From Sanderia malayensis (taxonomy: Eukaryota > Cnidaria > Scyphozoa > Semaeostomeae > Pelagiidae), in the NCBI GenBank assembly GCA_013076295.1, contig RQOL01000374.1, positions 868,001 through 932,000 on the forward strand: a DNA stretch of 64,000 bases, given 5' to 3'. Both the position numbers and the translations under genes were made by a program. The notes beneath the pieces are model-generated. The model made no database searches and was not told where the DNA came from. It saw only the letters and a program-made list of their open reading frames with translations. Numbering within the stretch: position 1 is the first letter of the stretch; each line of letters begins with the position of its first letter. Of the stretch, positions 13,651 to 35,185 are shown piece after piece.

Positions 13651-14449
13651 AAGTGCCTGTCACTGAGCATGATTCGCTATTCAAAACACGAAAGTTGTGG
13701 ATTTTGGCCTGTGAAAGATGTGAGTAAATTGTTTAAAAACTTTCATGATCTGCTGTATTTAAAAGCACTTACATTGAATCATTTTCGACTGGTACCTGGG
13801 TGTTCAGAAGCATTCAACTTTGGGGCCCCTCTAAATTTTTCATAATAGGCTTTCGTATTGCTTTCATGGAATTCATGTAGTTATAAACATGCGTTATTGA
13901 GTGCCAATTGGTGTATTAAAATTGTGTATTTATTAATCGAAATCTCGAATGAAATTGATAAATTCAGTCCGATTATGTACTCACAAATCTGATCCTTTGT
14001 TCACAAAGTTTCTCTGCATGGGGTTCGAGTTGAGGGGTTTCTGTCACACTGGCTAAAATAGCTGCTGAAAATAGTGCATGGGGAAAACATGGACCCGGAA
14101 CAACTTGGAATGGCAATCGGGGCTCGGGATTACATGCATCGTGTGCTCGGGAGAGATTTCATCTGTATTTTTTAAATTGTTTATTCTTTAATCAAAATCT
14201 CGAATCCAGTGGATCAATTCATTCGCAATGGTTCTGATGTATTGTTCACGGAGCTTCTTCTCTGCGTGGGATTTGAGTTGAGGCGTTTCTGCCACACTGA
14301 ATAAAGTGCTGGATTTCTCGCATCACGAGAAAACATAGACCTGGAACAACGTGGAATCAAAACCGGGGCTCGGGGGTTCCATGGACCGTGTGTTCGGGGA
14401 ATGGATGGAACTAATAAAACTTGCATAAGTTCAACTGAAAGTATATTAC

Positions 14450-14820
14450 TTTGCGTGTCCATCCCACTTTTTTGACGATCGCTGTTCCACTCAGACCGAA
14501 GGCCAAAACAACAGAAGCTCACACCACTTCTGTTTAAGATCACTGTCCCATTCAGGCCGAAGGCCAAAACAACATAAACCCACCCCACTTTTGTTCAAGA
14601 TCACTGTCCCACTCAGGTCGAAGGCCAAAACAACAGAAATTCACCCCACTTCTGTTTAAGATCGCTGTCCCACTCAGGTCAAAGGCCAAAACAACATAAC
14701 CCCACCCCATTTTCGTTGAAGATTGCTTTCCCACTCAGATCGAAGGCCAAAACAACTGAAACCCACCCCACTTTTTTTGAAGATTGCTGCTCCACTCACA
14801 TCGAAGGCCAACACACTAGG
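14450..14820 (-). repeat. 60-bp Helitron array, about 6 copies (H2)
   Basis: Units contain CCCACTCAGGTCGAAGGCC and CCACCCCACTTTTGTTCAAG. The array lies directly upstream of the 3' terminal hairpin, the same position as the larger array of H3. Confidence 0.85.
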
Positions 14821-14853
14821 GAGGTGGCGCGCGAAGCGCGCCAGCCTTCCTAG

Positions 14854-17027
14854 TCTATAATATATAAGAGCTGTCATCACGTGATGTGCTCTAAACAAAA
14901 GAAAACTCGCCCTCCGTTGTCAATGAACTCCTCCTACAGTTTTCGGTCAAGCGCCGCGAAAGACGCACCGATCTGCTCGACGTATCCTTGGGAAGTAAAA
15001 TGAGAATTGCTTTTCGTGAATTTCTCTTTCGTTTTCGAGATATTCAGCTTTTTCTGAATCGAAAACTTTCCCAGGAAGTCTATTGTTTTTTTCAAAAGAA
15101 TCGGCCTCACTTGGCACAGGAAGCAAATTTCCACCTCCATTCTCGAGTGGTTTTCTCCGGAATTATTCATAAATTCATTTCGAAAATTCCACATAACGTT
15201 AGCATGGAGCTCGCCCAGCAGCTCGGGTTTTTCGCTTTTCGATGTTCCAATTACTTCCAGAGATGTGCCCAAGTTAAACTAAACTACTGAGATCTCATCT
15301 CTACATGTTGTTTCCAGCGAAAGCCATTCTGCCCTCGAGTCAGGATTTACGTCACTATTTGAAATTTGATATATTTTGGTATTAGTCATTCCAACATCGG
15401 AGACAGCTATCTTTAAAACACCGAATCCGGAATCTGGAATCTGGAATACGGAATCGAAAATGAGGAAATCTAGAATAGCATACCAGATGTGATAAAGAGC
15501 AGCATAAAAATGGCTTCCTCTTGGCAAACAATCACAACATGGGCCGGGGAAGAATGCAATTGCAAGTTATGCTTTATATTGTAAATATCTTTACAGTATG
15601 TTAAATGTTTAAACAAGAATAACTATTATTATAGATTCAACATTTCGAATTCCGTATTCCGAAATTCGCATTCGGGAATTCGAATTCCATATTCCGCAAT
15701 CGGTGCTCTACAGATGGTCGATCTGAGACAATATGTTGAAACATCGAAGACATCGAGGAGGAAGGGACGGTTCCACTGGACCTGAGGAATGAAAATGTTC
15801 CGCTATTCCACTCACATCGAAGGCCAAAACAATAGAAACCCACCCCACTTTTCTTCAAGGTAACTGTCCCAGTCACATCGAAGGCCACAACAATAGAAAT
15901 CCACCCCACTTTTGTTGAAGATCACTGTCCCACTCACATCCAAGGCCAAAACAATAAAAACCCACCCCACGTTTGTTCAAGATCACTGTTCCACTCACAT
16001 CAAAGGCCAAAACAATATAAATCCACCCTACTTTTCTTCAAGATCACTGTCCCACTTACATCAAAGGCCAAAACAATGGAAATCCACCCCACTTTTGTTG
16101 AAGATCACTGTCCCATTCACATCGAAGGCCAAAACAATAGAAATCTACCCCATGTTTCTTCAAGATCACTGTCCCACTTACATCGAAGGCCAAGCAATAG
16201 AAATCCACCCCACTTTTGTTCAAGATCACTGTCCCACTCACATCAAAGGCCAAAGCAATAGAAATCCACCCCACTTTTGTTGAAGATCACTGTCCCACTC
16301 ACATCGAAGGCCAAAACAATAGAAATTCACCCCACTTTTGTTGAAGATCACTGTCCCACTCACATCAAAGGCCAAAACAATAAAAACCCACCCCACTTTT
16401 CTTCAAGATAACTGTCCCACTCACATGGAAGGCCAAAACAATAGAAATCCACCCCACTTTTGTTGAAGATCACTGTCCCACTCACATCGAAGGCCAAAAC
16501 AATAGAAATCCACTCCACTTTTGTTGAAGATCAGTGACCCACTCACATCGAAGGCCAAAACAACAGAAACCCACTCCACGTTTGTTGAATATCACTGTTA
16601 CACTCAGATCGAAGGCCAAAATAACAGAAACCCACCCCAATTTTCTTCAAGATCACTGTCCCACTCACATGGAAGGCCAAAACAATAGAAATGCACCCCA
16701 CTTTTCTTCAAGATCACTGTCCCACTCACATCGAAGGCCAAAACAATAGAAATTCACCCCACTTTTGTTGAAGATCGCTGTTCCACTCACATCGAAGGCC
16801 AAAACAAAAGAAACCCACCCCACCTTTGTTCAAGATCGCTGTTACACTCAGATCGAAGGCCAAAATAACAGAAACCCACCCCACTTTTGTTCAAGATCGC
16901 TGTTCCACTCAGATCGAAGGCCAAAATAACAGAAACCCACCCCACTTTTGTTCAAGATCGCTGTTCCACTCACATCGTAGGCCAAAACACTAGGGAGGTG
17001 GTGCGCGAAGCGCGCCAGCCTTCCTAG
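14854..17027 (+). mobile_element. Non-autonomous Helitron H3, complete, fused to H2
   Basis: The copy begins TCTATAATATATAAGAGC directly after the CTAG that ends H2. It finishes with the hairpin TGCGCGAAGCGCGCC and CTAG at 17024-17027, followed by T. The 2,174 bp carry no Rep/helicase gene. Two AT-rich stretches at 15410-15480 and 15640-15710 hold GGAATC/GATTCC-type short inverted repeats. The final 1.2 kb is a 60-bp tandem array. The ends match Helitron rules: 5' TC, 3' hairpin plus CTRR, A/T target. Confidence 0.75.
15800..16990. repeat. 60-61-bp tandem array, about 19 copies (H3)
   Basis: The consensus unit contains CACTGTCCCACTCACATCG, AAGGCCAAAACAATAGAAA and CCACCCCACTTTTGTTGAAG. Copies differ by a few substitutions. 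Open frames across the array on both strands are a by-product of the repeat. Confidence 0.9.
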
Positions 17028-17374
17028 TAATATATTATATTGTATGCATACTGTAGAAAAATTAATACGGATATAATAATTTTAAGTAAAATTCAAAAAT
17101 AACAGTACAATCAATTAATGTTGTTGTCTAGGACACTGAGATGAATCATAATGATTTTCGAGCCCAGTGCCCTAGGTTAAGGTAGATCAACAATTATTAT
17201 AATGCAATATTTTATCGTCTCGATGATGAATTTGAAAAAAATTTACGATTAATCATAACTAAACATAACAGAAAATACAGATAAAAGTTGAAGAAAAAAC
17301 AAAAGAGGAAAAGGAAAGAGGGGTAGGCGGCGGTTGACAAATTGGGTTACTTGTTTTTGGTGAGAAAATCAGGA
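17028..17374. other. Gap between Helitron H3 and the 12-kb element
   Basis: AT-rich, with no gene. A short imperfect inverted repeat built on CTAGGACACTG / CAGTGCCCTAG spans 17129-17195. Confidence 0.4.
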
Positions 17375-17455
17375 ATAAAAAGAGCCAAAATTTGGTTCTT
17401 CTCCAACCACTGTAACAATAGGCAATATAACAATTAAATGAAAACGAGGCAACTT
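17375..17455 (+). repeat. Left 81-bp terminal inverted repeat
   Basis: Starts ATAAAAAGAGCCAAAATTTG and ends CGAGGCAACTT. The reverse complement of 29429-29509 aligns over the full length; the difference seen is G versus C in AAATGAAAAC / AAATCAAAAC. Confidence 0.9.
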
Positions 17456-17481
17456 ACCATGGATACAACGTATCCATGGTA
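17455..17481. repeat. Perfect 12-bp hairpin at inner TIR edge
   Basis: TACCATGGATAC, loop AAC, GTATCCATGGTA. It directly follows the left terminal repeat, and TATCCATG is repeated once more at 17484-17491. It could be a transposase binding site or promoter element; the right end lacks an equivalent. Confidence 0.8.
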
Positions 17482-17600
17482 AGTATCCATGAAAATTTTT
17501 CAAATTTAATGGCCGCCATAAATTTCATTCCGCCATATAATTCGTTGGTCAATTTTGTTAATTTTAGCTCACTTTAAATTGCTATTTGAGCATTCCAGTT

Positions 17601-19989
17601 ATGGATAATGACAAGAACAACTCAAATAATGTGTTTCATGGGAACTTTCGTTCTGTTGCTGGAAGGCCAGACCTTGGTTTAAGCACTCAATCTCAGCACT
17701 TTGCCCCATTACGTGACCAAGAGGAAAACCTTTCGAACTTAAACAACGAACAAGAAGAACCAGTTGTAACTGGAATGCCTTTCAGCATTTTATCACCCAT
17801 GGATGGCCTGCCAGCTTATTCAATGTTTCCGACTTTACCCAAACTGGGACGACGAAAAAGACCGAAGATAAGGAAACGGATAGCGCAGGGGGAGGGAGGA
17901 GGATCACGAACAGAACTTGCAATTGGAGCAAATGCCGAACAACTAATCGGCATTGTAGATCTTGCTACGGCTTTAGGAAGAGAAGGTCTTGTGCTAAATT
18001 CTTGTCACTATTAATACTTTTTTATCAACATTTATTTTCATAGACATGTAGGTACTTGTAAATAAAACGAAATTACAGGCCTTCCTACATCCTAACAGCT
18101 TCAGAAAGACGCACTTGTAATTCCAAATGATATAAAGACAAAAAAATGCGTTTAACGTATCCGTCACAAGATTTGAATAAGTTCATTATACAGTCTGGTG
18201 GTTATACCAATGGAAGTTCATCTCATAATTGCCTATGGAATTACCTATAGAATTATTTTATTAAGCAATCATATTGTATGGAGTTTTATGCAAATGAACA
18301 GGAAGATGTTCATGCAGATTTTCAAGAAAGATATTGCAAACCCAACCCTATCTTAAAGGCCAGTTGGTGGTAAATTATGTGTGATAAATGTTTTATGTTC
18401 TCAGAATTTGAAGTGGCCAGTGAGGGTATGGACATGGATACTGATAATGACATTGAAGACAGCCAAGATGGTGGTGACAGTTTAGAATGTGTAGACAATG
18501 CCATTATGATTCCACAGGTATGTTCACTCATTTGATTTATTTGCACAATATTAATAAGTTTGTAAGAAATTGTTGCTTGAGCCAATGGAAACAATCAGCA
18601 AGTAGACCTTTATTATATCTGGCTTTTTACATAATTGTTTTGTTTTATGGGCATGGTTTTATTTTTGAAAACCTCTGATCTGCACTAATGTAATCTGAAA
18701 TTTTGAAACACAGTGTCTGCAGATAGAGTACTCCTTGGCATTTTGCTAAGCTGAGTCCTCTGCTTGAGATTGTGCCTTGGATTTATCGTAATTGCCAGGC
18801 TACTAATTGCAATTTTGACAGATAAAATATGTTCTATGAGAATATATGTGAACCATTTGTTTTGTAGTTTTCTTCATAGCCAAGGCTCTATCTCAAATTA
18901 TCTGTACTGATGAGACCTTAAAGGTCGAAACACTGTTTACCCACTAATTTTTTTCTACTTGTTTGATTATGTATTCAGTTGCTTGAGATTGGATTGTTTT
19001 CAGGTGGATACAGCAGAAAGCTACTTGTTTCAAGTTCTGAAGGCAAAATCAGTAATGATTCTAAATGCCAATTGTGATTATTTGATTCAGGATTTTGATA
19101 CTGAAAAGCAAATTCTCAAGGTATATATAGTTATTGGGGCAAGAATGGTGATACATATGTCATAATTATAGCTGTAAATGTAATTCCTTGCCATAGGTCA
19201 TCATTTTTGGTTTACTTCATCTGTGAAAATTCAACAGTTATGCAAGATATTCATTTTGTTTGGTACCAATGTGTAGTTTGTGTTTCCAGTTGATGCAACA
19301 ATAAACAACTAGACCTGTTGAGATGCAAAGTTTTGTTTTTTACTTCTTATAGCATCAACGGTATTGTATAGTATCCAGATCACCCATTAAGTTTGCAGAC
19401 TGTTCTGACTGGGTTTATTTTTGCACATGTGGCAATGGAAGAATGGAATTTGTTGAAGGTTTGAATAAGGAGATACACCAAAATGTTCAGGGTGGGTAAA
19501 CTAAACTACTTTTTATTTATGTGGTAAAATGTGTTTCCATTTGTCCTTACAAGTTGCAATATATTTCATAAAACTACAGTACTGTCAACTAATGAGAGGT
19601 TGGTAAAGAAACTTTATTTCAAGATTTCAGAGATATGATCAAAGAAAGTTTTCCTGATTGTCTACATATGCAGATTTGCAAGAAAGTTTCAGATGCTTGG
19701 GAGTCCATTAATGGGGTTTTGATGCAAAGAAACAACGGTTTGAACTGCAATTATTTTTATTTTATATAATGGTGTAGAACCCACCTTCAGACCTGTCATA
19801 TAAAGTGTGAGGAGAGAATTTGCCAGCTCTCTGTAATTCTAGGCAAAAAGGCAAAAGGAATCACGAGGTGTGGTCACATCGAGAGGAAGGACCAGGGTTG
19901 CACTGCTTCGATTAGTCTAGCTATTCAGTGGGCCCTTTGTGCTTAGCACATAAACCAATACCTTACGAAGATAGTAAGCGTATTTGCCT

Positions 19990-20023
<34 letters not shown>

Positions 20024-23000
20024 TGTGTAAGAGGTAGTCCAGTGTGAATATATGATATTTCAATCGTTGACCTCAAATTAATTACAAAATGTTTTTAATA
20101 ATTCGGTAGAGGATATCTATGTAAATAACATGTCAAAAATCGACATGGATGACAACGAGGAAACCCCCATTGTCCAGCCTTGAAGTTTTTTTTGCTCAAA
20201 CGATCTCTTTCTTCAAAAATCGACATTCCTTGGTCCTCGTTACTCGCTGAAATTATGGTTGGCATACAGTGTTTTCGTTGAAAAAGTTTGCATCTTTTCA
20301 TGAAAGCTTGAACACGTAAATTTTCAAAAACAATGAAATTGTGAAGCTCGAATGGAAAATATCATTGATTTTCTTTCACTTTTAGCCATAGACAGGAAAA
20401 TTCTTATAAAATCTAGCAATCAGGGTAACCGGAATTTTGTCTTTTGAAACATGTTGCTGGGGGTTTGGGTTTCAAAATCCGTCGGGGGTCAAAAGTGTTC
20501 GGCCGGGGGGTCATGCTACTACTTACGTCATGTCTGGAGGGTCAATGAATTTTTTTAAGCCAAACTTCTGCAAAATTGATAACAAACGGAAGAGAATTTT
20601 AAACTGAGCGAAAAACGTATAAGAATTGGGGCCATAAGTTTGGTATTAATTTTGCTGAGTTTTGATCAACCAAATTTCACCGATCCCCAGATATGATATG
20701 GGCAGTAACATGACCCTCGGGCAAAAATGTTTTTGTCCCCCCGGCGGATTGGATTTTGAAACCCAAACCCCCCAGCAACATGTTTCAAAAAATAGAATTC
20801 CGGTTACCTGGTTGCTAGATCCTTATAAGAATTTCCGTCTACCATAAATTCGATTTGTTGTCTTAAAAACCACCCACCTCTAATATACTCTAATATTTTG
20901 TTTTCAGCCACCGTGATTTGTGTGTTTCTTGCCAGATATTGTTGTCAACTCTTGATATCTTTAAAGATGTAAAACGTAGACATGCTTTGGGTTATCTAAC
21001 AATAGAAAAAGGAATTTTGGCAATTATTTTGAAGTATTTTGATACATTGACTGCACTAACAATTACTTTTTGCTTTACAGATGTATTGTTGGAACATTGG
21101 TACCACCAGGTGCTGTAATGGCATTAATGTTATATTTTGTTTTCATGATTCTTCAACAAATTAATTCTCATTCTTTTTGAGATAATTATTTTGCATTACG
21201 CATTTGTTTTTAAAGGATTTTCCCACTATTCTGGACTTACCCTTTTCCAAAAAATCACTTGCTTGTGTTCGACCACAGAGTGGTACTTATGGAGTAGTAG
21301 GTGTCGATCGAAAAGGATTCAGATGTTTAACTTGCAGCCATGGTCGTCATTCTTGTCCGCACGTGACATGCATAAAGTTTGAGCTTGAAAGGGATAGTGA
21401 AAATGTTCCCGAGTTCTTATACGAGTTGGTAGAAGAGCATAGCAGTCTGAAAGCTCTGATTAGACGTCCATATGTTCGCCACGCAATTTCAAAAAATCAA
21501 ATTCCTGCGCAAGTTGTTCAAACTCAAAAAAGCATTTTTAATGGCCACTTGAATTCATCGGTTGAAGAAATAACTACAGGGGATAACAAAGTGCTAAGGC
21601 TGATTCCCGATGATGATAAATTTTGCTTCTGTTCCCATGAGTTTGCTGTAGTTAAATGGAGCGAGGACAAAAAGAATCTCTTTACACTGAAGAATATTCT
21701 TGAGGTTTCAGGTTTGCGAATTTATATCAGTATACTCCCCATGTTTTTAATCACAAACAACTTTTACTTTACATTCCGACACTACAAGCACGAACAAAAC
21801 TCCCGATTGAGAATACAAAAAATGTAATGAATGTAACTTTTGCTGTGGGGGACTGTTGCCATTAAGGAATAACGTGCACGATGTGTGGTCTCAATCGAAC
21901 ACATTAAACTCTTATTCCAACCAGAGGCGCATTTATCCTTGATTACAACGGACATAAAACATTGCATTTTTTCTTAGAAAGGCAGTGCGTTGTTATTACT
22001 GAAATTGGGAAATAGCTAAGAAAGTTTGAGTGCTCAGTTTAACAAAATGAACAGTGCTTACGGAATTTGAGGAAAAGTTCTCAAAAAAGAGAGGGGACTG
22101 TTGCAAGATAATTGTACAGGGCTTAGAGCCTTTACAGAAGCCACATGTTTGATTTACATCATTTTCATTGTCACATTACTTTCTGCAGTACCATACAAGA
22201 TATGTGGAAATGTTTCATGCCGATCAATTCAAAATTATGATGGTTGCTCAAAAGGTATACTAAACATGGGAGATTATCTTGTTAGACACGACATTTTGAG
22301 AAGCTATATGAACAACTTTATTACCGGAAACAGGTGAGTGAATCACGAACTTCATCAACAAACTTTCCTAGTAGCTAAAGCATTAGTATAAATGAATTGA
22401 TATCTGATATACATAGCTTACCATGCATTCATGTTATTGCAGCCAAAGTCTTATCAGTTATCTTGAGGTTTTGAAGTTAAACTTGGAGGATTCTGGGCAA
22501 CTGAGACAATATTGCCTTAGTTATTATCAGCTTGGAAGTAGTTGGCTTGCCTATTTGCGTCTACTGGATATTGATTTCGGCACGTGTTTTGAATGTTCCA
22601 TTTGTGGACGCTATCCCAAAGTCATCCTTTGTGATGCAACATCGTTAGGGCATAGGCAGATATATGCCACTCAAATTGAAATGCAGCAGCAAGTCCAAGG
22701 AAATGTGATGCTAAAAGGAAGATAAGTATAGCTAGACAATGTTAAGTTTTACATGTATTTTAGAACACAATCCTGTTTTTGCACTGCATTCGTCCATTTA
22801 ATGCATCCCAGGTCTTATTGTCGATTTTTATTCATCTTTACTAGCTTTCAGGATCGTATTTTCATAAACGATTCTGCTACAAGAAAGTCATTTCGAAGTT
22901 TGGCCAAAACAAGGGAAATCGATCCAGAAGAACGCTTGAAATTGAACCAACTGCTTCAAAGCAAACATCCAAGCTTGTTCCGAGTGCTGTCCGAATGCGA

Positions 23001-24387
23001 AGAGCTCTACACTGGAATTGCACATGTACCAGATAGTGTTTGGGTGCTTTTCCAATGTTTGTCATCTAGTTCGCCTGTGGTGTCTTACTTTCCTCTTTCT
23101 GACACTCTTGATAAGCTAATGAGTGATCTGGCAAACGGTTTGATCATTCGAAAAGAACCCAAACGTCTTCTCGATCTGCAAACAATTGCCCCCATTATCT
23201 TTGGTGTTCTGAAAGGACTACCATCTAGTCGATTATCCAAGAATTGGCTTGATCTGTTCTCTTCACTAAGAGTAACATCAAAAGCATGCTTTTCCAACGA
23301 ACAGCATAATCTTGGATTGCCGACAGAGTCAAATTGTGAACTTTCGCATCCGTCTTTTTTCCCTGCATGGCCTGCTTTGTGTGATAGAGGTTTTTATGAA
23401 ATGGATTGCAGTAGGACAAATGCTAGAGAACGTTGCAATAAGCTGTAAACTGGCCATCCAAATCTTGTGTCAGGAATATTTACAGTTTACTGCGAACGCG
23501 GTAAGAAAAATCTCGCTACATCATCTTTCCATCTGGTGCCTAGTCCTATATATTTAAAATATGATGTAAACAAAAAACCGAAACAGCCAATCTAAGCAAT
23601 ATCTACAAAAGCATGTCATTATTTTTGTAGAAATATGTTACGGTTTTGAAGTGATGGATTCTCCAGAGTCGGTGAATGTGCCTTTCACTATTGTGCGTAC
23701 TCGATTTCCATCAGGTGAGATTAATAGCATTACCTTCGGGCTGAACATTGTGAAATTTGTCCATTTCCTTTATTATTCGAAGAAGTGGTAGCTTTTGAAG
23801 AATCAACTACAACACTTGCAAATGTTGTTTTTAAGTACAAAGTTACTTCTTCCTTTTCAGCTCCAGAACTGAGAGTATATGACAACTGCTGTCATCTTCA
23901 TGAATATTGTTTGAACAGGGATCCAGTATATTTCAAATCTTGTCTTTTCTTGGTAGACAGGTTTCACTGGAAAAACCACATTGGTTAGTTTTTATAAACT
24001 GTTCTGATACTGTTTAGACTTTAAACATGCATGCATTTTACTCCAGAGTAGAACGCATGTAATGCATGTTTATTTAAAATATGATGCACTGCTACAAATT
24101 GAAAGCAATCACAGCAACAAATATAAACAAAAAAGGCAACCATCAAATCCGATTATTTTTTTGAACAAAACTGCATCTTAATTTTCAATTTTGAATTTTC
24201 AGGTTGTGCAGAAAGCTATAATGTATGCAACTATCCGCAATACGAAAAGCTCAATACTCAAGTCAATGAACAACGAAATTCAACGTTAAAGATTTTGAGA
24301 AACCAATTATCTTACATGACGCCTGATAACTTCAAACGCCACTGCGCATTGTTCATGATGCACAGAAACAAAAAGAAGAATGCATAG
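17601..24387 (+). CDS. KDZ-superfamily (HMGXB3-like) transposase, multi-exon
   Basis: Exons inferred from GT-AG sites: 17601-about 18010, 18405-18517, 19004-19120, 19353-about 19491, 20908-20968, 21081-21109, 21216-21703, 22189-22333, 22443-about 22725, 22852-about 23500, 23631-23714, 23861-23983 and 24203-24387. Exon 1 encodes a basic GRRKRPKIRKR stretch. The 21216 exon has a SWIM/CxC4-like cluster, FRCLTCSHGRHSCPHV. Later exons give CFECSICGRYPKVILCDATS, YGFEVMDSPES, VYDNCCHLHEYCLNRDP and FLVDRFHWKNHIGCAESYN, hallmarks of KDZ transposases and of HMGXB3 with its CxC4 cluster. The Asp residues in ILCDATS and VYDNCC and a Glu in QVNEQRNS are candidate catalytic residues (inference). There may be a frameshift near 23410 and the exon-9 donor is not canonical. 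It reads out from the left TIR of the 12-kb element. Confidence 0.75.
19990..20023. repeat. (TCAA)n microsatellite, possible SINE/LINE tail
   Basis: Eight or so TCAA units in an intron. The 150 bp before it show no coding sense, and the abrupt simple-repeat tail resembles the 3' end of a short retroelement. Confidence 0.7.
20388..20845. repeat. Fold-back element (MITE-like) in intron
   Basis: The arms are inverted copies of about 110 bp or more: the left arm includes GGTAACCGGAATT, GAAACATGTTGCTGGGGG and TTTGGGTTTCAAAATCC; the right arm is its reverse complement with about 10-15 percent differences. Arms join through about 230 bp of less conserved sequence. It sits between the 19353 and 20908 exons of the KDZ-like gene. 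No target duplication could be fixed. Confidence 0.75.
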
Positions 24388-24420
24388 GTAAAAATGCTTA
24401 ATTTTATTCTGATATAACTG

Positions 24421-25204
24421 GGAAATAGTAAACGATTGAACACTGGAGTACCAAAATTTGGCACTTTAGTATCCCTCTACAAAAATCATTTCAAAGCGTA
24501 AAATTGATATAAAGACGAGGAAATAGTAAATGATTGAACACTGGAGTACCAAAATTTGGCACTTTAGTATCCCTCTACAAAAATCATTTTAAAGCGTAAA
24601 ATTGACATAAAGACGAGGAAATAGTAAATGATTGAACACTGGAGTACCAAAATTTGGCACTTTAGTATCCCTCTACAAAAATCATTTCAAAGCGTAAAAT
24701 TGACATAAAGACGAGGAAATAGTAAATGATTGAACACTGGGGTACCAAAATTTGGCACTTTAGTATCCCTCTACAAAAATCATTTCAAAGCGTAAAATTG
24801 ATATAAAGACGAGGAAATAGTAAATGATTGAACACTGGGGTACCAAAATTGGGCACTTTAGTATCCCTCTACAAAAATCATTTCAAAGCGTAAAATTGAC
24901 ATAAAGACGAGGAAATAGTAAACGATTGAACACTGGAGTACCAAAATTTGGCACTTTAGTATCCCTCTACAAAAATCATTTCAAAGCGTAAAATTGATAT
25001 AAAGACGAGGAAATAGTAAACGATTGAACACTGGAGTACCAAAATTTGGCACTTTAGTATCCCTCTACAAAAATCATTTCAAAGCGTAAAATTGACATAA
25101 AGACGAGGAAATAGTAAACGATTGAACACTGGAGTACCAAAATTTGGCACTTTAGTATTCCTCTATCAAAATCATCTCAAAGCGTCAAATTGAAATTTGG
25201 CACT
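24421..25204. repeat. 98-bp minisatellite, 8 copies
   Basis: GGAAATAGTAAA(C/T)GATTG recurs at 24421, 24519, 24617, 24715, 24813, 24911, 25009 and 25107, a constant 98-bp step with very few differences. Part of the unit reappears at 25358-25510 after an AT-rich spacer. The array fills the space between the two converging gene ends. Confidence 0.95.
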
Positions 25205-25698
25205 TCAGTGTCCTTGCACACAGTCTAAATTAAATTAATTAAACAATTTCTACCAAATAATAGCGGCAATTCTTCTTGTTGATATAATATAAACAAACAA
25301 ATATATATAAACAAATATAAACGAAACAAAAAGTAAAAATCACAAATCACAAATACAAAAATCATCTCAAAGCGTAAAATTGACATAAAGACGAGGAAAT
25401 AGTAAATGATTGAACACTGGAGTACCAAAATTTGGCACTTTAGTATCCCTCTATCAAAATCATTTCAAAGCGTAAAATTGAAATTTGGCACTTCAGTGTC
25501 CTTGCACACGGTCTAAGTTAAATTAATTAAACAATGTCTACAAAACAATAGTGGCAATTCTTCTTGCTGATGTAATATAAACGCAATGATCTAAACAAAT
25601 GTGGAGAGTAGATTATCTTTAAATGTTGAAAGTAAATTAAATATGAATTTATAACCGAAATATTAAGTGCATAAAAGAATGTTTGACTGGACTTACCT

Positions 25699-28600
25699 CC
25701 GGGACAAGTACGTTTAGGTTCAGTGTAATACGCAGTGTAAGATCAATTTTGGCGTATTTCCTTATGCGGCCACTGCGCCTTAAAACATAATTGGATAGCT
25801 CTTCTTCCTGATAACGAGGAATAGCTAACGGTTATGATCTCCTCTAAAATAATTTGAGATAAACAGGACAATTGTACAGAAAAATACATTGGCAAAATTA
25901 ATTTTAAAAACATACCGCATCTTCTTTCAGAAACCAAGAGTTTTCAGCCATATCACGCAATTTCACGAATGCCTTGTCCTCGAAAAGTTTAACCCGTGGA
26001 GAGTATATTCTCCCTGCCACAATATCAGCTAAATACTTCTGCAATGAATATTGATACCAGAATGAATTATATGTGATACGTCAATTCGAAATACACTCTT
26101 CCAAATTAATACGCATAAAGAGAACACTTCCTCCAATCGTTAGCTGTCAAATATTTGTTTACCATAATGGCTTTATCCATAGTTTGCAACAGCGTACGTA
26201 ATGTATGTTTGGAGGCAAATGCTGGCAGGCTGGAAAATAATTGTTATTTGTGGTAATGAACTAAATTATGCTGTAAATGAAAGTTGTATGTAGCTAGCTA
26301 GGAAATACAATTTTAGAAGCGGTATTGAAGATACATGTAATATTATAAAATTGTGTAAGTGTACCTTGTGATTGGATCTACTCTTATGTGGCAAAAACAC
26401 GACCAATCTGTTGGAGTCTCTTTTGCACTATCTAGTGATGCACAATAAATGTGATACTGGCGTAGGCAGTACTTACATTTAATTAGATTGTGCTTGGTCT
26501 TTATTCCAAAACGGAAGGAGCACAGATCACCGAGAGCGCAATGACCATTTTCTAACTCGTGTGTTTCCTCCGTAGGCTGCAAAAGTGGCACAGTATGGTT
26601 GAAATTGCCATCGGGTGATGATGGCACCCAAAGAATATCAACATGGCCTGCGCTATGGTTTGCATTAATTTTATGATTTAAGCTTCCGAGTCTTCTGGGA
26701 TCAATGGAATTGATATTAATGTCCATTGCCAACGCCACAAGGACCAAATGCAAAAATGCTGAAAAGAATTACATTTTCCATGACTTTTCCATGCCATGAC
26801 TCTTAGTGTCAATAGCAAAAGAATGAAGTTTAGAACAAATTTCCAGCTTAAAACATACGTACATGAGTATCTGTAACATTGCAAACTCTCCATCACCTCA
26901 CCGCGTACAACATGCCTCAACCTATTATCCTCATCTTCTATCGCTTGAAATGCTCTTGTCACATTGTCTGTTGTTATCAACGTGATAAGACATGGGACAT
27001 TGCTGATTATATCTGTAAGCTAAATGAAATATTTTCTCATTACATATACCTTCCCAATTTCACTTTCCAATAATTTTATTAATTTTAAAGTTATACCAGT
27101 TTTAAAACTTTATCCTCATTCAAAATGGCATAACGAAGAGCAGACAATTTTACAATGGGCCACATTTCTTCTTCTCCCAAAATAGCAAGGGAAATAGACC
27201 TGTAAAAACAGTTTCCATCTCCTTTCACTGCTATTGGCTCCTTTCCCATTGCAGCAGCATATTGGGGCACTAAATGGCGATACCTAAAAAATAACTTTCA
27301 TTGGCACTTTTCTAAACTTTTCTGATTTGTTGAGCAACAATGAATGTCAACAGCATTGTGGGACTTGAACCCACAGTACATTTCTCATTGTAGAAATGTG
27401 TGTTTCATTACACCAAATGCTGATGGCTAGTGACATCAATGTTGCGAGTGGTAAAAAAGCACAATCATTGCATTAACATACCAATGCTCTACCATATCTA
27501 AGCTAATGTTCAATTGTGCTGGTCGTTTTGGAGCAATGTATGGAAGGGCAGAAAATATTCCCCTCAATACCAAAAAATTTGGAATTTTGCTTGGATCGTT
27601 GAAAAATTCCAAGCATTCGTCTGGAGTCCATGTAAAACTCTAAAATAAATATTAAGTGGTGAAATAATAATATTCATTCGGAACCATCTTCTGAATCTGT
27701 TGATTCTCTGGAACATAGATACAAACCTCATATCCAATCCCATCCAAGAAGCGATTAATTGTGGTATCGTTTTCACCTAACTCGCAGGAACTTTCATCCA
27801 ATGCTCCCTTAAAATTATTGCCTATACCCTCTGTACCACCATCCAAAACACCCAGCTCACCATCATCATTTACATCCTGCATATCGTCCTGCACAACCAC
27901 ATTGCCATCACAAATACCATCTGAATTCACCTCTACAACACCACCTTCTTCTATCTCATTTTCAAAATTCTCACAATCCTCCACATTATCACTATGAACA
28001 TTATCATCATTATCATCACCGTCACCCTCCTCAACATAATCTCCCTCTACTCCATTAACCAATCCACCATCCTCTCTAGCTCTGACTTCTTCAACAGCTA
28101 CACGCCGAAAATATTCCTGTGCAACTGTGAGCAATTCATCAAGGATCTCAACACTGGGTCTTGGAAATTTGTTTGGTGAAGCAAAAGTTATACTTTGTGG
28201 CCACCAAATTGGACAGGAAGCCAACTGCCACTTGTTGCATTTTAACAAATCTGAAAAAAATATAGTATCACTGAAACAGATGAATAGAAATATATAGAAA
28301 GACATAAACATTGCAAAAACTAATGGTACTTGATTTGCACTTGCAACACAATGCATCTAAACCACAGATCACAGTGTGAATGTAATAAATACCATTTCCC
28401 AGAACCAGTTGACAAATTCACTTTCGCTTGTCATCAACATGATAATCTATAACATCCCCTTGCATGATGGTTCTCAAGAGGAGTTCATCAATTCCTATAA
28501 CAAAATTTTATATATAGCTTTCATAAACGTCACATGCATATACACAACACACATATATACAGCTTAATCAGCACATACTTCTAACCCTTCCCTCTTGTTC

Positions 28601-29285
28601 TTCCACTGGGGCAGCAGTATTCATTGCTTTTAAGGCTACTCTTGTGAATTCTTTTGCAACAATTCGATTTTCTGCAAATTCCGCAAATGCTTGATCTCCT
28701 GAATGAAAAATATCAAAAGTCTGAAAACTTGAAGCTTGAGGGTCTTTAACAAAACACAACTTTATAAAACCATCTACTGTACTACAAACCCAAAAATTTC
28801 ATATGCAGATTCCCATTTTTGTCTTTATGCAGTGTCAGTGTTACTGCTGGCATCCCGGTTTTCAATTTCCAATCTTTCATCTGCAAATTCATTTTAATTT
28901 TAATCTAAACTATAAATTCAAAATTTGCATGCAATGCAAGTGAAAAATTAAATATTGGAGTGAGTGTGAGCGGTGAGCCCGACTCTGGAAATCTGAAATT
29001 TATGTAAGTAATCACCAACACATACCAATCTATCTACTCTCTTCATCATTCTTCCATCAGTTCTGGTCCTTTGTTTTTTTTCTTTCAAAAATTCTTTTTT
29101 AGATGGACCACGAAAACGCTACAAAACAATACGTTGTTTTATTGCAACATGACCTTAAAATAAATTTGGTTTAGTTCAGCATGATACGAAGTGTACAGTA
29201 CAGTACTCACTGTTGGAGGTAATCTAGCAGCCCCATTGTTTGATTCGGTTGGCTCGGTATCCTGCATATCTTCTTCGAATTCCAT
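25699..29285 (-). CDS. OTU-type cysteine protease with WWP motif and PHD-like finger, multi-exon
   Basis: Exons on the minus strand with consistent phase: 29285-29211 (ATG at 29285), 29118-29026, 28880-28790, 28698-28586, an unresolved exon near 28494, 28250-27727, 27639-27482, 27283-27097, about 27012-26895, 26758-about 26364, 26231-26164, 26040-25918 and 25813-25699. The 3' end is not fixed. The 28250 exon has CPIWWPQSITFASPNKF, then a long acidic stretch. The 27283 exon holds the OTU active site AVKGDGNCFYRSISLAILG with catalytic Asp and Cys. The 26758 exon supplies HLVLVALAMDININSI and the probable catalytic His in NFNHTVPLL, then a Cys/His cluster CKYCLRQYHIYC with WSCFCH. OTU proteases cleave ubiquitin chains. 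The transposon location implies a role in protecting the transposase or countering host control; that is inference. The splice from 27097 to 27012 is one base out of phase. Confidence 0.7.
27351..27422 (-). tRNA. tRNA-like sequence in intron (degenerate)
   Basis: Exactly 72 nt on the minus strand. A perfect 7-bp acceptor stem CAGCATT/AATGCTG, a 4-bp D stem GTGT/ACAC and a canonical T arm GTGGGTTCAAGTCCCAC are present, giving intact A- and B-box-like motifs. The anticodon arm is abnormal: a 7-8-bp stem with a six-base loop ACAATG. It is more likely a decayed tRNA or tRNA-derived SINE head than a working tRNA. It lies between the 27482 and 27283 exons of the OTU gene. Confidence 0.4.
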
Positions 29286-29428
29286 TTTCAATAGACAGAT
29301 CAAAATATAATATTCAAACACACTAAATTAAAAGATTACTTTCTCAACCTCAAAACCTTTTTCTCTGGTCGGTTCTGGCCACGTGTACCTGTGCTATATT
29401 GCGTAATTTGTTTATCATCCTCAAGTGC

Positions 29429-29509
29429 AAGTTGCCTCGTTTTGATTTAATTGTTATATTGCCTATTGTTACAGTGGTTGGAGAAGAACCAAATTTTGGC
29501 TCTTTTTAT
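29429..29509 (-). repeat. Right 81-bp terminal inverted repeat
   Basis: Inverted partner of 17375-17455. It lies 144 bp upstream of the ATG of the OTU-type gene, so both terminal repeats sit at the 5' side of a gene and could carry the promoters. Confidence 0.9.
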
Positions 29510-30290
29510 AACTCCTGAAATATAAACAAACACCTCCTGATTTGGTATTACTTGGATGATCACTACGATGTATTTCTTTGCTAAATCCTTCTATCATAAT
29601 GTCTTCTTTGCTTATTGTGTTATCAAGCATAGTCTCAGAAAAAGCTATCACGTCAAAATGATGGACAGAATTGTTTGCTTCAATCAAAGGGATTTTTATA
29701 CCCTCTCTTGCACATATACTATTTAAATTCCAATGAAAGAATTTCAGAAAATTTCCAACTCGTGGCCCTTGGTTTGTTTCAATCTCTCCAGAAAGTAAAA
29801 GGAAGTCTAAGGGTTGGTGTTGTCTATAACAGACGCATTCTAGGTAACTGCTGATCAATAACTCGTATAGCACTGAATGGAATTTCGCTAACAAGTGTAC
29901 CCGATGGATTTTAACACTAGAAAAGAGTCTTATAGTATGGGCTGGAGCATCAGGAGTAAACACAGTTACGAAACAGATCGTCCCCACTACTGCAGTCCGT
30001 AATGTTTCAACTACCAGAAAGAGTTTCTGATTTTGTAGACTTGTTAGGGTCTTAGGCGAAAAGAGTTCTGAAAATAGCACCAATTGACAAATGATTAACA
30101 AGAACGATGCAGCCAGCACGGAGAGTAGAGATTTCATTATAAACAATGTCATGATGTGGGACAACCAGGCAAAATAGCAGAGCAAAAAGTTAGACAAATT
30201 GATGGAAGAGAAGCCAACGAGCAGCCTTTTCAAAATCATTTTGTGATTAAGGTCGATTCCTGCACGCCACTGTTCAGTTCCTATGGGCAT
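29510..30290 (-). pseudogene. LINE N-terminal part: hydrophobic leader, 2A-like peptide, endonuclease start
   Basis: Read from 30290 down. A hydrophobic leader of about 170 residues contains several membrane-like segments (IICQLVLFSELF and similar). It ends in LLLSGEIETNQGP, which matches the 2A ribosome-skipping motif (D/E-x-E-x-N-P-G-P) except that the first Pro is Gln. The endonuclease domain starts directly after it: FFHWNLNSICAREG, VIAFSETMLD and SGGVCLYF, as in APE endonucleases of CR1/L2/Rex-type LINEs. It is cut off by the right end of the 12-kb element after about 75 endonuclease residues. Confidence 0.7.
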
Positions 30291-31245
30291 TTGACGATTG
30301 AAAAGACCTCTTCAGTCAAGCGCAAAGGCACGTGAGGTTTAGCATTGAGAGTGTTGCAGCAGCGATTGCATGGGGAATCGGAATAAAATAACGAATCAAA
30401 AGAACGTAAAAAATCTTTGAAAAACATAAAAGAAAGCAACGCTTTCAACAGAATAATTTTTGGCATTTTGAAGCCATGCATGAAGTTAAAGGTTTTTTGG
30501 AAAATTTTTGATAACGTTTTGACGAGCCAAAGGGGTTTCAAATTTTCAGCAGAAGGAAAATTATCAAGAAAAGAGCTCAGAAAAGAGGAGGTTCCCTAGA
30601 GCATTAACTACAAACATAATTCCGTTTGTGACATGGCAACCACAGGTTAAGGTTCAGGGTTGTAAACAAAGTTTGGCTTTGATAAAATAATTGAGTACAA
30701 TTTTACCAGAAAAATTTATCTTTCCATGAAAGAAGAAAAACTTGTATCAAAGAAAATTTAGCTCAACGATTGCCTTGGCAACAAACGAAACCATACATTT
30801 TATTTTATGATACTAACTCAACAAGAGGGAAGAGCAAAAATAATCTTTCCCTAGCACACAGATGGTGTCACTCTGACTTTGAAGAAATTATTATAATCAC
30901 ATGAAAATGTTAATGGAGCTAGCCAGGGTCACCATAATATGCTACAGAAAGATAACTCGCTCTTCCTAAATTAGGTAACTCGCTCTTCCTAAATTAGGTA
31001 ATTAAATTATAAATCATCTAATATGTTTTGTAGTTTCTCGACTGAGTGAAAGAAAAGAAAATTTCCATTTTTCAATTTGGCTATCAAATGGCAGTTTATG
31101 TCTGCAAAAACAAATTCCAGGATGTTTGCCTTACCTAACTTCGTTAGCCTATTTTTGGTTAAATCCAATCTTATACGAACCGTTTGGAGCTTCTTCCTGC
31201 TTCGATAAACCGTTGTGCGATCCCCGAATGATTTGAACTTTGCAA
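30291..31245. other. Gap with LINE leader sequence and short duplications
   Basis: 30541-30281 is open on the minus strand and may be the 5' leader of the preceding LINE. TAACTCGCTCTTCCTAAATT is repeated directly at about 30952-31000. No gene is recognised. Confidence 0.4.
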
Positions 31246-31640
31246 TTAGTTGTTCTCTTTTTTCTCCATTTTTTCTCTATCCACCGAGTCTAATCCAACG
31301 CCGCCGTCCAAATCCTCAAGAACTTTTCCAATTTTTACCATGCAGTCTTCTTTTCTGCCATTTTCAGGTAACTCAATGTTGTCAAACCTTAAACAGGTGC
31401 GTCTGCTGTACAGCTCAGTTTCTTCGAGCTTAGCTTCAAGTTTTTCCATGAGAACCCAATTGTTTTCAAGGATTTCAATGCGTTCTTCTAGGGACTTGAT
31501 CTTTACTCGTTCTCCTTCAAGTTTCTCTTCAAACTTTTCTTCGATTTTTCTCGTGGCTTTCTCCAGGGCCTCTTCTATGAAGGCTTTGTTAGGTAACTTT
31601 GCTATTTCTGCTTGCAATTGAGCCAACACCCTCTGGAATT
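31246..31640 (-). pseudogene. LINE ORF1-like fragment, coiled coil plus RRM-like start
   Basis: About 127 residues: a Glu/Lys-rich coiled coil (KATRKIEEKFEEKLEGERVK) followed by LYSRRTCLRFDNIELPENG, the entry to the RRM-like domain of L1-type ORF1 (Transposase_22 family). It ends within that domain. It faces a second ORF1 of the same general type on the plus strand 130 bp away. Confidence 0.65.
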
Positions 31641-31773
31641 CTTCCTGTCTGCCAGGCGGTATACAGTATACAGTATCTCAACGGTATGGCTGGCTGGTGA
31701 GAGGACGCACGTTTGCTCGCTCTGAGGTGGACACTCAAATTCTGTTACCAGAACTACTAAAATCGTTAAAAAT

Positions 31774-32418
31774 ATGCCACCGAAGCAGAAAACCTCTCGT
31801 GCACGCTCGGAAAAAGATGCAGAACCTAATAAAGCTGATGAAAACGAAGCCACTTTGAAGAATGACTCAAATGCTTACAAGGAGGAAGAAGTCAGACCGC
31901 CATCTTGGGTGAACGCCTTCAAGGCTGTCCTGCTTCAAGAATTAGACCACAAGTTTTCAGTAAGGCTTAGTGTTTATGAAGACAAAATTCAAAACTCTCT
32001 GATGACTCTGTAGAGCTCCGTAACGAATATCCAAGAAAAAGAAAACGAAATATGTTCTAAAATTGATGGATTCGAGTCGAATATGGCTGAAGTTGAAATC
32101 GTGATTTCCAAACTCAAACATGATCTGGAAAGCAGCACTTCCCAAATTGCCAACCTTGAAAATCAAATAGATGACTTGACTAACCGACAATGTCGGAAAA
32201 CACTGATCTTTAAAGGTTTTCCAGAAAAATGCGAAGAAGAAGACACCTGCGATAGCTGTCGCTCGTTCTTAACTGAATTTATTGGCCAAAAATTCGATCA
32301 GAATGTCGAAATTGAAAGGGCCCATCGAACCAAGAAAAAATTTAGGCCTAGTAATGTCAATGACTCCAACCCTCCTCGTTTGATATTTGCTGAATTCTTA
32401 AGCTGGAGATTTGTCTGA
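31774..32418 (+). pseudogene. LINE ORF1 (coiled-coil/RRM type), one stop
   Basis: ATG at 31774 starts MPPKQKTSRARSEKDAEPNK. A TAG at 32011-32013 interrupts the frame, which then continues through a coiled coil (ISKLKHDLESSTSQIANLEN) and an RRM-like segment (CRKTLIFKGFPEKCEEEDT, VEIERAHRTKKK). This is the nucleic-acid chaperone type of ORF1 found in L1 and some CR1-like LINEs. It ends abruptly where endonuclease sequence begins. Confidence 0.7.
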
Positions 32419-35185
32419 AAGAAAGGCTACAGTTGGCGCTCAAAATAAGATAAATATTGAGCTTCCAGGATACAAATTTCACGAATCTCCCTCTCACAGT
32501 TCTGCTGGTGGTGTTGGAATTTATGTCAAGTCAAATCTCACAGCTAACAAAAGAGATGATCTCTGTATTGGTGATAAAGACTTTGAAATTGTATGGATTG
32601 AGGTTGAAAATCCAAAAGCCCATAATATCCTTTTCTGTTGTGCCTACAGACATCCTAATTCCGAAATTTCTAAATTTACCAACTATTTTCAGGAGACACT
32701 CAAGAACATTGCAAAGGAAAATAAACTGATTGCTATTATGGGTGATTTTAACATTGATTTGCTCAAATATGATAATAATACCCCTACCAATGATTTTGTC
32801 AATATGATGTTTTCTTACCATTTCCAACCATCCATACTTCATCCAACTCATATTACTGAATCCTCTTCAACAATTATTGATAACATTTATGTTAACAATG
32901 CAACTGAAAGTGATATTTTTGCTGGTAACATTCTATCTCTAATCTCAGATCACCTGCCACAATTTGCTATCTTGAGTGAGAATGCACCTGACTACAAAAA
33001 TTCTTCTTATTTTGTTTATGATTGCAGGAACTTTGACAGCACTAAATTTCTTGCTGATTACAAAGAAATTGAAACTTCTTTCCTTGAAGATGTCAGTTTG
33101 GACCTTAACAATAAATTTGATAATTTTCTATCTAATATTAACATCCTCATTAAAAAACATTGTCCCATGAAAAAGTTAAACAAAAAGTCACTTAAGCTTA
33201 GGAATAGACCATGGATTAACGTGAAAATACGAAGAATGATGATAATTAGAGACAATTTATTTAAGTTATTTAAGTCAACTAAATCAGTATATGATCTAAA
33301 AGCCTACAAACAATTTCGAAATCACATCGTGAATGAATTGCGAGAGAGTAAGAAGGCATATTATCATCAGTATTTTGATGAACATAGAAATAACATGAAG
33401 ATGCTGTGGAATGGCATTAAAAGTATAATAAGCATAAAACCTGGAAATTTTGATACTGTTTCCTATTTGAAGGATGAGAATGGTACAGAAACCTCAGACC
33501 CAAAGAAGATAGCTAATGAATTTAATAATTATTTTACTAATATTGCCAGTAATATCACAAAGAAAATTCCCAGAACACCAAAATCTCCATTAGATTACTT
33601 ATCCAATCCTACAATGGAATCATTTTTTATATCTCCTAGCACACCAGAAGAGATTTCATCTCTGAATCAATCTTTGAAAAATGGTAAATCCAGTGGACCG
33701 AAGAGTATACCAGTGAAACTTCTAAAAATCCTTGATATGCCCATCTCAAAGGACCTCTCTAGATTGGTCAATGAATCCTTTATTATGGGGATCTTTCCTG
33801 AAAAGCTTAAAATTGCTAAGGTTATTCCTGTCTTTAAAAAGGGACTTCCCACAAGTAAATCTAATTACAGACCGATTTCTCTGCTTTCTATCTTTAGCAA
33901 AATTTTTGAAAAATTAATGCACAAGCGTCTTTACAGTTTCCTTGAATTCTATGAGGCATTATATGGCATGCAATTTGGTTTTCGAACAGGCCACTCAACT
34001 GATCATGCACTAATTAGTTTAACTGAAACTATTAAATCTTCTTTAGACAATAAAAGGTTTGGTTGTGGAATCTTTATGGACTTACAGAAGGCTTTTGACA
34101 CAGTAAATCATGAAATTCTTATAAAAAAGTTAGAACATTATGGAATCAGGGGCACTGCTTTAAATTGGTTCCAATCTTACCTTGGTAACCGCAAACAATA
34201 TGTCTCAATTAATGGCCATTCTTCTTCTCTTTTGGACATACCCTGTGGTGTTCCCCAAGGCTCAGTCCTTGGCCCATTGCTATTTATAATCTACATAAAT
34301 GATTTGCCAAACTCATCAAAGTTTCTCTCATTCTTTCTCTTTGCTGACGATACTAACATTTACTGCGAGTCAGATGATCTTCAACTTCTCACCAAAAGAG
34401 TTAATAGAGAACTTAAAAAAGTTAAGCTTTGGCTGGATTCGAATAAACTCTCTCTTAATGTTGAAAAGACAAATTTTGTGCTGTTCCATAGCCCAAGGAA
34501 ACGGATAACTGACCTTTGCAACCTTAAAGTTGGCAAACAGAACATTAAAAGGTCACGATACGTCAAATTTTTAGGTATTCTTATGGATGAGCATCTATCC
34601 TGGAAAATTCATACAACTGAACTTTGTAAAAAACTTTCCAGAACTGCTGGTATCTTCTTTAAATTGAGACATTATCTTCCCGTGCCTGCACTTCTATCTC
34701 TCTATAACTCGATATTTCAATCTTTCCTCAGCTATGGGATTTCTGTATGGGGTTTGACCTATGATTCTTACTTGGATCCACTCTTTCGTCTTCAGAAGAA
34801 AATTGTGCGGTGTATTAAGTTTGAGCCCTCCACATCCCCAAGAACACCCATTTTCCACACATTGAAAATTTTGAAACTTGAGGATATTCTGCACCTAAAT
34901 ATTCTAAACTTTGTTTATAAATCCATCAACAAAATAGCTCCATCTTGCTTTCACAATTATTTTCAACCTAATGCAGCTATCCATAAAATTGGGACTCGTC
35001 AGGCTTCTAGAGGTGATATCTTCCAAACAGTTAGAAATACTTCCTTGTATGGTCTTAAAACAATTCAATATTTTGGTTCAAAAATTTGGAACACTATTCC
35101 ACTCTTCTTACGTGTTTCTAGTTCCGTTTCTGCATTTCGTTCACACTTGAAAACTTTTTTTCTTACAAATTACTGCCAGAACTAA
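32411..35185 (+). CDS. LINE ORF2: APE endonuclease (N-truncated) and reverse transcriptase
   Basis: An uninterrupted frame of about 924 codons. The endonuclease lacks its first 60-100 residues and starts near SAGGVGIYVKSN; GDFNIDLL (residue about 111) and the catalytic ISDHLPQFAI (about 178) are present. The RT domain runs from NYRPISLLSIFSKIFEK (about 484) through FMDLQKAFDTVNH, GVPQGSVLGPLLF (about 613) and FADDTNIY (about 643), where the two catalytic Asp are intact. A C-terminal region with WGLTYDSYLDPLFRLQKKIV follows. The absence of stops over 2.8 kb suggests recent activity of the family, although this copy lacks a full endonuclease. The listed start is the first start-like codon in the open frame, not a proven one. 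Confidence 0.8.
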   Translation: MSERKATVGAQNKINIELPGYKFHESPSHSSAGGVGIYVKSNLTANKRDDLCIGDKDFEIVWIEVENPKAHNILFCCAYRHPNSEISKFTNYFQETLKNIAKENKLIAIMGDFNIDLLKYDNNTPTNDFVNMMFSYHFQPSILHPTHITESSSTIIDNIYVNNATESDIFAGNILSLISDHLPQFAILSENAPDYKNSSYFVYDCRNFDSTKFLADYKEIETSFLEDVSLDLNNKFDNFLSNINILIKKHCPMKKLNKKSLKLRNRPWINVKIRRMMIIRDNLFKLFKSTKSVYDLKAYKQFRNHIVNELRESKKAYYHQYFDEHRNNMKMLWNGIKSIISIKPGNFDTVSYLKDENGTETSDPKKIANEFNNYFTNIASNITKKIPRTPKSPLDYLSNPTMESFFISPSTPEEISSLNQSLKNGKSSGPKSIPVKLLKILDMPISKDLSRLVNESFIMGIFPEKLKIAKVIPVFKKGLPTSKSNYRPISLLSIFSKIFEKLMHKRLYSFLEFYEALYGMQFGFRTGHSTDHALISLTETIKSSLDNKRFGCGIFMDLQKAFDTVNHEILIKKLEHYGIRGTALNWFQSYLGNRKQYVSINGHSSSLLDIPCGVPQGSVLGPLLFIIYINDLPNSSKFLSFFLFADDTNIYCESDDLQLLTKRVNRELKKVKLWLDSNKLSLNVEKTNFVLFHSPRKRITDLCNLKVGKQNIKRSRYVKFLGILMDEHLSWKIHTTELCKKLSRTAGIFFKLRHYLPVPALLSLYNSIFQSFLSYGISVWGLTYDSYLDPLFRLQKKIVRCIKFEPSTSPRTPIFHTLKILKLEDILHLNILNFVYKSINKIAPSCFHNYFQPNAAIHKIGTRQASRGDIFQTVRNTSLYGLKTIQYFGSKIWNTIPLFLRVSSSVSAFRSHLKTFFLTNYCQN

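Follow-up and report, generated by a model that had tools for sequence, protein, structure and literature searches.

A jellyfish family of terminal-inverted-repeat transposons combining a predicted KDZ-type transposase with a convergent gene for a putative OTU-PHD deubiquitinase

Introduction

Among the KDZ (Kyakuja-Dileera-Zisupton) transposons, Zisupton elements generate 8-bp target duplications and Kyakuja elements 7-bp duplications without terminal inverted repeats (TIRs), and the KDZ elements of fungi carry TET genes, which are discussed alongside transposon silencing (PMC12730594); a multi-exon Zisupton has been described from a nematode (PMC9297572). Proteases of the OTU type are known from other mobile elements. 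Ginger1 TIR transposons of Hydra and other hosts contain OTU or Ulp1 domains and, in one family, a PHD domain (PMC2836005), and Helentrons possess an OTU cysteine protease as an accessory function (PMC4067079, PMC9741609). For deubiquitinases of another class encoded by Helitrons, protection from proteasomal degradation has been suggested, while their OTU counterparts are said to be untested (PMC9741609). We report on a 64,000-nt stretch of the genome of Sanderia malayensis (assembly GCA_013076295.1, contig RQOL01000374.1, positions 868,001–932,000 of the forward strand; referred to as the window), which contains a ca. 12-kb element with two converging multi-exon genes between its ends, one for a predicted KDZ-type transposase and the other for a putative OTU protease with a PHD-like finger.

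A preliminary description of the locus, derived from the sequence alone, could name no counterpart of this gene pair and proposed that the deubiquitinase might control transposase stability or a ubiquitin-based host defence. The pair is without a counterpart in so far as none of the papers listed by our literature searches treats KDZ together with OTU, mention in the founding KDZ paper or in Repbase reports remaining possible, but OTU proteases as such are already established components of transposons, namely of Ginger1 and Helentrons (PMC2836005, PMC4067079).

Results

The element is delimited by 81-nt inverted repeats (arms 17375–17455 and 29429–29509) which are 99% complementary, lie 11,973 nt apart and constitute the longest of 23 inverted pairs detected in a scan of window positions 14000–33000. 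The two converging spliced genes described earlier between these repeats are confirmed, with 14 exons (and one in-frame stop) for the transposase and 13 exons for the OTU-PHD gene. The true ends of the element are located slightly outside the arms, at 17370 (5′-CAGGAATAAAAAG) and at 29514 (other end 5′-GAGTTATAAAAAG), since copies with clean target duplications fix the boundaries.

A search of the 184-Mb genome with the terminal repeat, already envisaged in the preliminary description, yielded 16 matches, which correspond to four insertion sites of the window family, the fragment C756 and the diverged family C686. The four sites comprise the window copy together with contig C475, C350 together with C771, C876, and C303:4.87 Mb together with C900 with its single end. 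C475 and C771 share the flanks of the window copy and of C350, respectively, on both sides, and C900 shares that of C303:4.87 Mb at its one end, so that these three contigs appear to be alleles or haplotypes left uncollapsed. In all five other two-ended copies (C475, C771, C350, C876 and C303:4.87 Mb), as well as in the diverged element C686:5168809–5190814, the repeats enclose both genes. The repeat is thus multi-copy, and not single as the opposing possibility raised at the outset had it, and the two genes move along with it. In C686:5168809–5190814 the CAGG end is found on the OTU side, reversed relative to the window element.

Perfect 8-bp target duplications (8/8 bases) flank two of the four family insertions, CGTAGATT at C350/C771 and TTAAAAAC at C876, and the diverged C686 element exhibits 7/8. 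The C876 copy resides in a repeated element, and its flanks, when joined with one 8-bp copy, match other loci without interruption, three of them at full length with 88–92% identity and eight with 70–81%; two of the 33 matches obtained in total are the halves at C876 itself. We take the uninterrupted loci as paralogous empty sites. The alternative that the pair represents ordinary host genes was rejected because both genes accompany the repeats and such empty sites exist for one of the insertions (C876). The element and its gene pair are hence confirmed as a real TIR DNA transposon family.

Twelve homologs of the transposase (P0001–P0012) were found at E ≤ 0.001, including proteins of Rhopilema, Clytia, Mytilus, Pecten and Branchiostoma and two metagenome proteins. 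The nearest one, Rhopilema P0001, shares 49% identity and has no Pfam match; at 34–37% identity the window transposase aligns with cnidarian and mollusc proteins bearing Pfam KDZ and/or CxC4. At E ≤ 0.01, KDZ is matched by six of the 12 homologs and CxC4 (PF18717) by seven. The alignment with P0004 (37%, E 7e-112) spans the KDZ (PF18758) stretch 545–666 of this protein, which passes the Pfam cut-off, and the CxC4 stretch 178–278 of P0004 aligns with the window transposase from about residue 457. The KDZ/CxC4 assignment proposed earlier is thereby borne out: judged from the homolog chain via P0004 and not from a direct Pfam match, gene 1 is predicted to encode a KDZ-superfamily transposase, with a putative cysteine cluster of the CxC4 type ahead of the core. 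The CxC4 module is presumably linked to human HMGXB3. The Pfam KDZ model appears to be insensitive near the window lineage, because P0002, one of the proteins assigned to KDZ, falls just under its cut-off (26.2 vs 26.6 bits). The two Asp and the Glu of the predicted RNase-H-type core are kept in the window transposase (Table 1); a transposase profile compared with the sequences of solved structures gave nothing at E ≤ 1.

Intron 10 of the transposase gene is of the AT-AC type, which we take to be U2-like. A mutated donor after exon 10 was rejected as explanation, since the ATAAGT donor is common to the C405/C598/C591 loci and C483, and with an AC acceptor the spacing of residues seen in the homologs is recovered. 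Exon 11 starts at 22842 (22845 in the first gene model). The other copies carry one stop (C876), two stops (C303:4.87 Mb) or small insertions in exon 1 only (C350); in the haplotype contigs C475 and C771 many small indels occur, for which decay and sequencing error are indistinguishable.

The second gene, on the opposite strand, was modelled in consistent phase over its first 12 exons (29285–25697), and exon 13 (25224–25177) was taken from the deposited model P0013. The N-terminus of its product is basic and conserved; further along, the protein contains an OTU domain, in which Asp, Cys and His are present, and a PHD-like finger. Gene model, motifs and profile match agree with the earlier reading, which had named both the WWP motif and the PHD-like finger of this OTU gene. 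At all four family insertion sites (window, C350, C876 and C303:4.87 Mb) the frame of the first 12 exons is open; in the second haplotype contigs it is broken, by one stop in C475 and a frameshift in C771. The C686 family repeats the exon series of basic N-terminus, WWP exon, OTU, finger and, at the C-terminus, an exon of the RRSGRIRKY type; much of this series also occurs in C781, C303:5.75 Mb, C598 and C405.

The Cys motif reads DGNC in the window, DGTC in C405, C771, C453, C686:4.52 Mb, C850, C686:3.94 Mb, C747 and C483 (followed by a stop in the C483 copy), NGTC in C686:5.17 Mb, C781:3.83 Mb and C303:5.75 Mb, and, in the decayed copy C303:3.54 Mb, GGTC. The Cys is missing from the DGNG of C303:2.14 Mb and C686:4.74 Mb, and the Cys exon was not seen in the C631 lineage. 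Altogether, six of the seven lineages in which this motif was read retain the OTU Cys, and the predicted His and the finger cysteines persist in all eight. An assignment of the catalytic His to GHVDILW was rejected, as other lineages lack a His there, whereas all eight retain that of [ND]HxxPL a few residues further on. When seven families were combined into a profile, OTUs of known structure (OTUD5, E 2.5e-5) and, weakly, PHD fingers were matched. With a DGxC Cys and a downstream His, gene 2 shows the hallmarks of an OTU cysteine protease gene, and its product is a predicted deubiquitinase. Protein searches retrieved five EukProt gene models, four close to the window gene (72–99%) and one at 34%, the close ones and the 34% one lacking the Cys exon; no relative from a named other species was found by these searches.

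The convergent pair recurs far beyond the window family. A search with one transposase exon gave 87 rows, of which 11 were dropped as second pieces of one gene, leaving 76 loci that include the six contigs of the window family. The OTU matches were merged to 57 loci and complemented by six from further searches, tested only against five nearby transposase loci, to give 63. An OTU gene lies within 15 kb at 29 of the 76 transposase loci, compared with 0.78 expected by chance, and each of the 29 is located downstream on the opposite strand, i.e. convergently. With a 25-kb limit and the first OTU match set alone, 23 of 24 pairs are convergent. Since the loci include copies and alleles belonging to the same family, they cannot be counted as independent, and the number of lineages matters more than that of loci. 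In a tree comprising 34 of these loci and seven outside proteins, built on one exon of ≤186 residues and with many weakly supported deep nodes, the OTU-bearing loci fall, according to our own grouping, into eight diverged lineages, down to ca. 30% transposase identity. Seven of the 15 tree loci without OTU are placed inside OTU-bearing lineages, and P0001 from Rhopilema clusters, with a support of 0.99, with the C453 family, which bears OTU.

Two further arrangements were noticed. An OTU-finger piece at C303:1119853–1120130 and a Pfam KDZ match at 1120360–1120698 are positioned on the same strand ca. 230 bp apart, unlike the convergent pairs. At C859:6080484 and 6098155 two OTU genes are oriented towards each other at a distance of 18 kb, and the matches listed for the transposase exon include none in the interval.

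Discussion

The family resembles Zisupton in its transposase homologous to KDZ/CxC4 proteins, its many exons, its TIRs and its 8-bp duplications (PMC12730594), the window and C303:4.87 Mb copies themselves falling short of the last feature. It differs in that the second gene is a convergent OTU-PHD gene, whereas the reported accessory genes of KDZ elements, in the accessible literature, are TET/JBP dioxygenase genes in fungi. With Ginger1 it shares the organisation as a TIR transposon with an OTU and, in one Ginger1 family, a PHD domain (PMC2836005). There, however, OTU or Ulp1 is attached C-terminally to a Gypsy-integrase-like transposase; here OTU is encoded by a convergent gene of its own and the transposase homologs are KDZ proteins, which sets the element apart from Ginger1. 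Helentrons likewise use an OTU cysteine protease as an accessory (PMC4067079, PMC9741609) but are Rep/helicase rolling-circle elements, in contrast to the TIRs, target duplications and predicted KDZ transposase found here; neither protein of the window element has a Rep/helicase Pfam match. Compared to OTU deubiquitinases such as OTUD5, the DGxC and His motifs and the profile match are similar, whereas single sequences score under the Pfam cut-off and a basic N-terminal exon, a WWP exon and a PHD-like finger are added. In summary, OTU proteases in transposons are known, and their combination with KDZ was not found among the papers listed by our searches.

Given its recurrence in at least eight lineages, the protease probably takes an active part in the movement or survival of the element. 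With moderate confidence, we interpret the family as a two-gene TIR system of a KDZ transposase and a deubiquitinase whose site of action is chromatin or the transposition complex. The transposase would likely cut and paste the element by D/D/E chemistry and thereby make the 8-bp target duplications. The OTU domain might cleave ubiquitin, while the PHD-like finger and the basic N-terminus might bring the protein to chromatin or the transpososome, where it could help the element to move or persist, either by protecting the transposase or by dealing with ubiquitin signals where the DNA is broken. We regard action directly at the DNA site as the most likely, because the finger persists in each of the eight lineages read, the Cys-less one included, and because Ginger1 fuses the same kind of protease to its transposase.

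Several observations weigh against this interpretation. The target duplication anticipated in the preliminary description is perfect at C350/C771 and C876 but not clean at the window copy (4/8) and at C303:4.87 Mb (2/8), i.e. at two of four family insertions. The transposase frame of ca. 971 codons is interrupted in the window copy by one in-frame stop near 23446. In the Pfam comparison suggested earlier the homologs match KDZ/CxC4 but neither window protein passes the cut-off, the read-through transposase matching no family at E ≤ 10 and the single OTU-PHD sequence remaining below the thresholds for PHD, C65 and OTU. The fold model of the transposase is weak (mean predicted local distance difference test score, pLDDT, 57.8), and a Foldseek search with it returned nothing at E ≤ 0.001. 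One lineage has Gly in place of the OTU Cys and another Asn in place of the Asp. No OTU gene was found within 15 kb at 47 of the 76 transposase loci, where single-protein queries may miss remote ones, and eight of the 34 tree loci belong to clades with no OTU found. Conversely, 34 of the 63 OTU loci, some of them probably unrelated OTU genes, have no transposase-exon match within 15 kb. Finally, the 24th pair at the 25-kb limit is on the same strand, 19 kb apart.

Alternatively, the OTU protein may shield the transposase or other transposition proteins of the element from degradation by the proteasome and have no particular function at chromatin, as protection of this kind has been suggested for the Helitron-encoded deubiquitinases of another class (PMC9741609). 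The kept Cys and His are compatible with such a shield; retention of the PHD-like finger in eight of eight lineages, including the Cys-less one, argues against it, and we consider it rather unlikely. Still somewhat less probable is that OTU-PHD counters host silencing, for example by removing histone ubiquitin at element copies, with no direct part in transposition; the weak similarity of the finger profile to PHD fingers and the TET genes of fungal KDZ elements, discussed next to transposon silencing (PMC12730594), point in this direction.

The selection data bear on a third alternative. With synonymous divergence (dS) between families near or at saturation, the proportions of nonsynonymous and synonymous differences (pN and pS) between the window family and C686 are 0.29 and 0.60 for 568 OTU codons and 0.18 and 0.66 for 633 transposase codons; the C405 comparison gave 0.43 and 0.72 for OTU and 0.28 and 0.89 for the transposase. 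Among the four recent family insertions, the pooled ratio of nonsynonymous to synonymous rates (dN/dS) is 0.65 for OTU and 0.69 for the transposase, as expected for copies drifting after insertion. That the OTU gene was acquired a single time by a founder element and is a passenger in decay, as the loss of Asp or Cys in some lineages and the similarly low constraint on both genes among recent copies might indicate, is highly improbable in view of its presence in eight lineages down to ca. 30% transposase identity, its pN below pS between families and its open frame at four of four sites, even though this is broken in C475 and C771.

Extending the interpretation of a deubiquitinase acting locally at chromatin or the transposition complex, we tentatively propose, with some reservation, a distinct old animal KDZ lineage, “KDZ-OTU”, whose chromatin-reading deubiquitinase is a standing second gene and would bring a ubiquitin eraser to the transpososome or to silenced copies. 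If so, the pair is expected in other jellyfish, as the Rhopilema protein is placed inside an OTU-bearing clade. The family also adds an animal accessory gene to the KDZ superfamily, for which the accessible literature reports TET genes in fungi. Ubiquitin-family proteases, the present one predicted, now accompany unrelated transposition enzymes in three forms, fused (Ginger1), carried (Helentrons) and as a second gene (KDZ). That they were captured repeatedly suggests that an obstacle based on ubiquitin is common for DNA transposons, and a family with the OTU frame open at all four sites offers a natural test system for its nature.

Feature coordinates and neighbouring sequences

Table 1. Positions of the features of the Sanderia malayensis element in the window.
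Feature	Position	Strand	Remarks and basis
Left terminal inverted repeat, transposase side	17370..17455	+	ends 5′-CAGGAATAAAAAGAGCC; repeat scan, flank comparison
Right terminal inverted repeat, OTU side	29429..29514	-	ends 5′-GAGTTATAAAAAGAGCC; repeat scan, flank comparison
Predicted KDZ-type transposase gene	17601..24387	+	14 exons, consistent phases; gene model, other copies, homologs
Transposase exons 1–7	17601-17985, 18405-18517, 19004-19120, 19353-19495, 19631-19737, 20908-20968, 21081-21099	+	
Transposase exons 8–14	21216-21711, 22189-22333, 22443-22721, 22842-23500, 23631-23714, 23861-23983, 24203-24387	+	
Predicted first catalytic Asp	22633..22635	+	CDATSLG
Intron 10, AT-AC type	22722..22841	+	ATAAGT donor, AC acceptor; other copies, related loci
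Predicted second catalytic Asp	23881..23883	+	YDNCC
Predicted catalytic Glu	24268..24270	+	NEQRN
OTU-PHD gene	25177..29285	-	13 exons, 704 aa; gene model, other copies, deposited model P0013
OTU-PHD exons 1–7 (descending)	29285-29211, 29118-29026, 28880-28845, 28720-28579, 28250-27727, 27639-27482, 27283-27097	-	
OTU-PHD exons 8–13 (descending)	27019-26863, 26758-26365, 26229-26163, 26038-25916, 25807-25697, 25224-25177	-	
Basic N-terminal exon	29026..29118	-	RFRGPSKKEFLKEKKQRTRTDGRMMKRVDRL; 78% identical in C686 family (32 aligned residues)
Exon with predicted OTU Asp and Cys	27097..27283	-	KGDGNC; Asp codon 27219, Cys codon 27210
Exon with predicted catalytic His and PHD-like zinc finger	26365..26758	-	NHTVPLL; His codon 26597
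385-bp inverted-repeat unit resembling a miniature inverted-repeat transposable element	20424..20808	.	within transposase intron 5; shared by other copies
98-bp minisatellite and longer repeats between gene ends	24410..25582	.	contains last OTU exon

For the minisatellite between the gene ends, all 48 matches listed for a two-unit query are located in the fragment C756 or in copies of the window family, among which C303:4.87 Mb has a much longer array. Immediately left of the element, a long array of 61-bp tandem repeats extends over window positions 14360–17077. In the right flank, an open frame of 280 aa on the minus strand (29469–30311) resembles, by eye, the start of an open reading frame of a retrotransposon without long terminal repeats.
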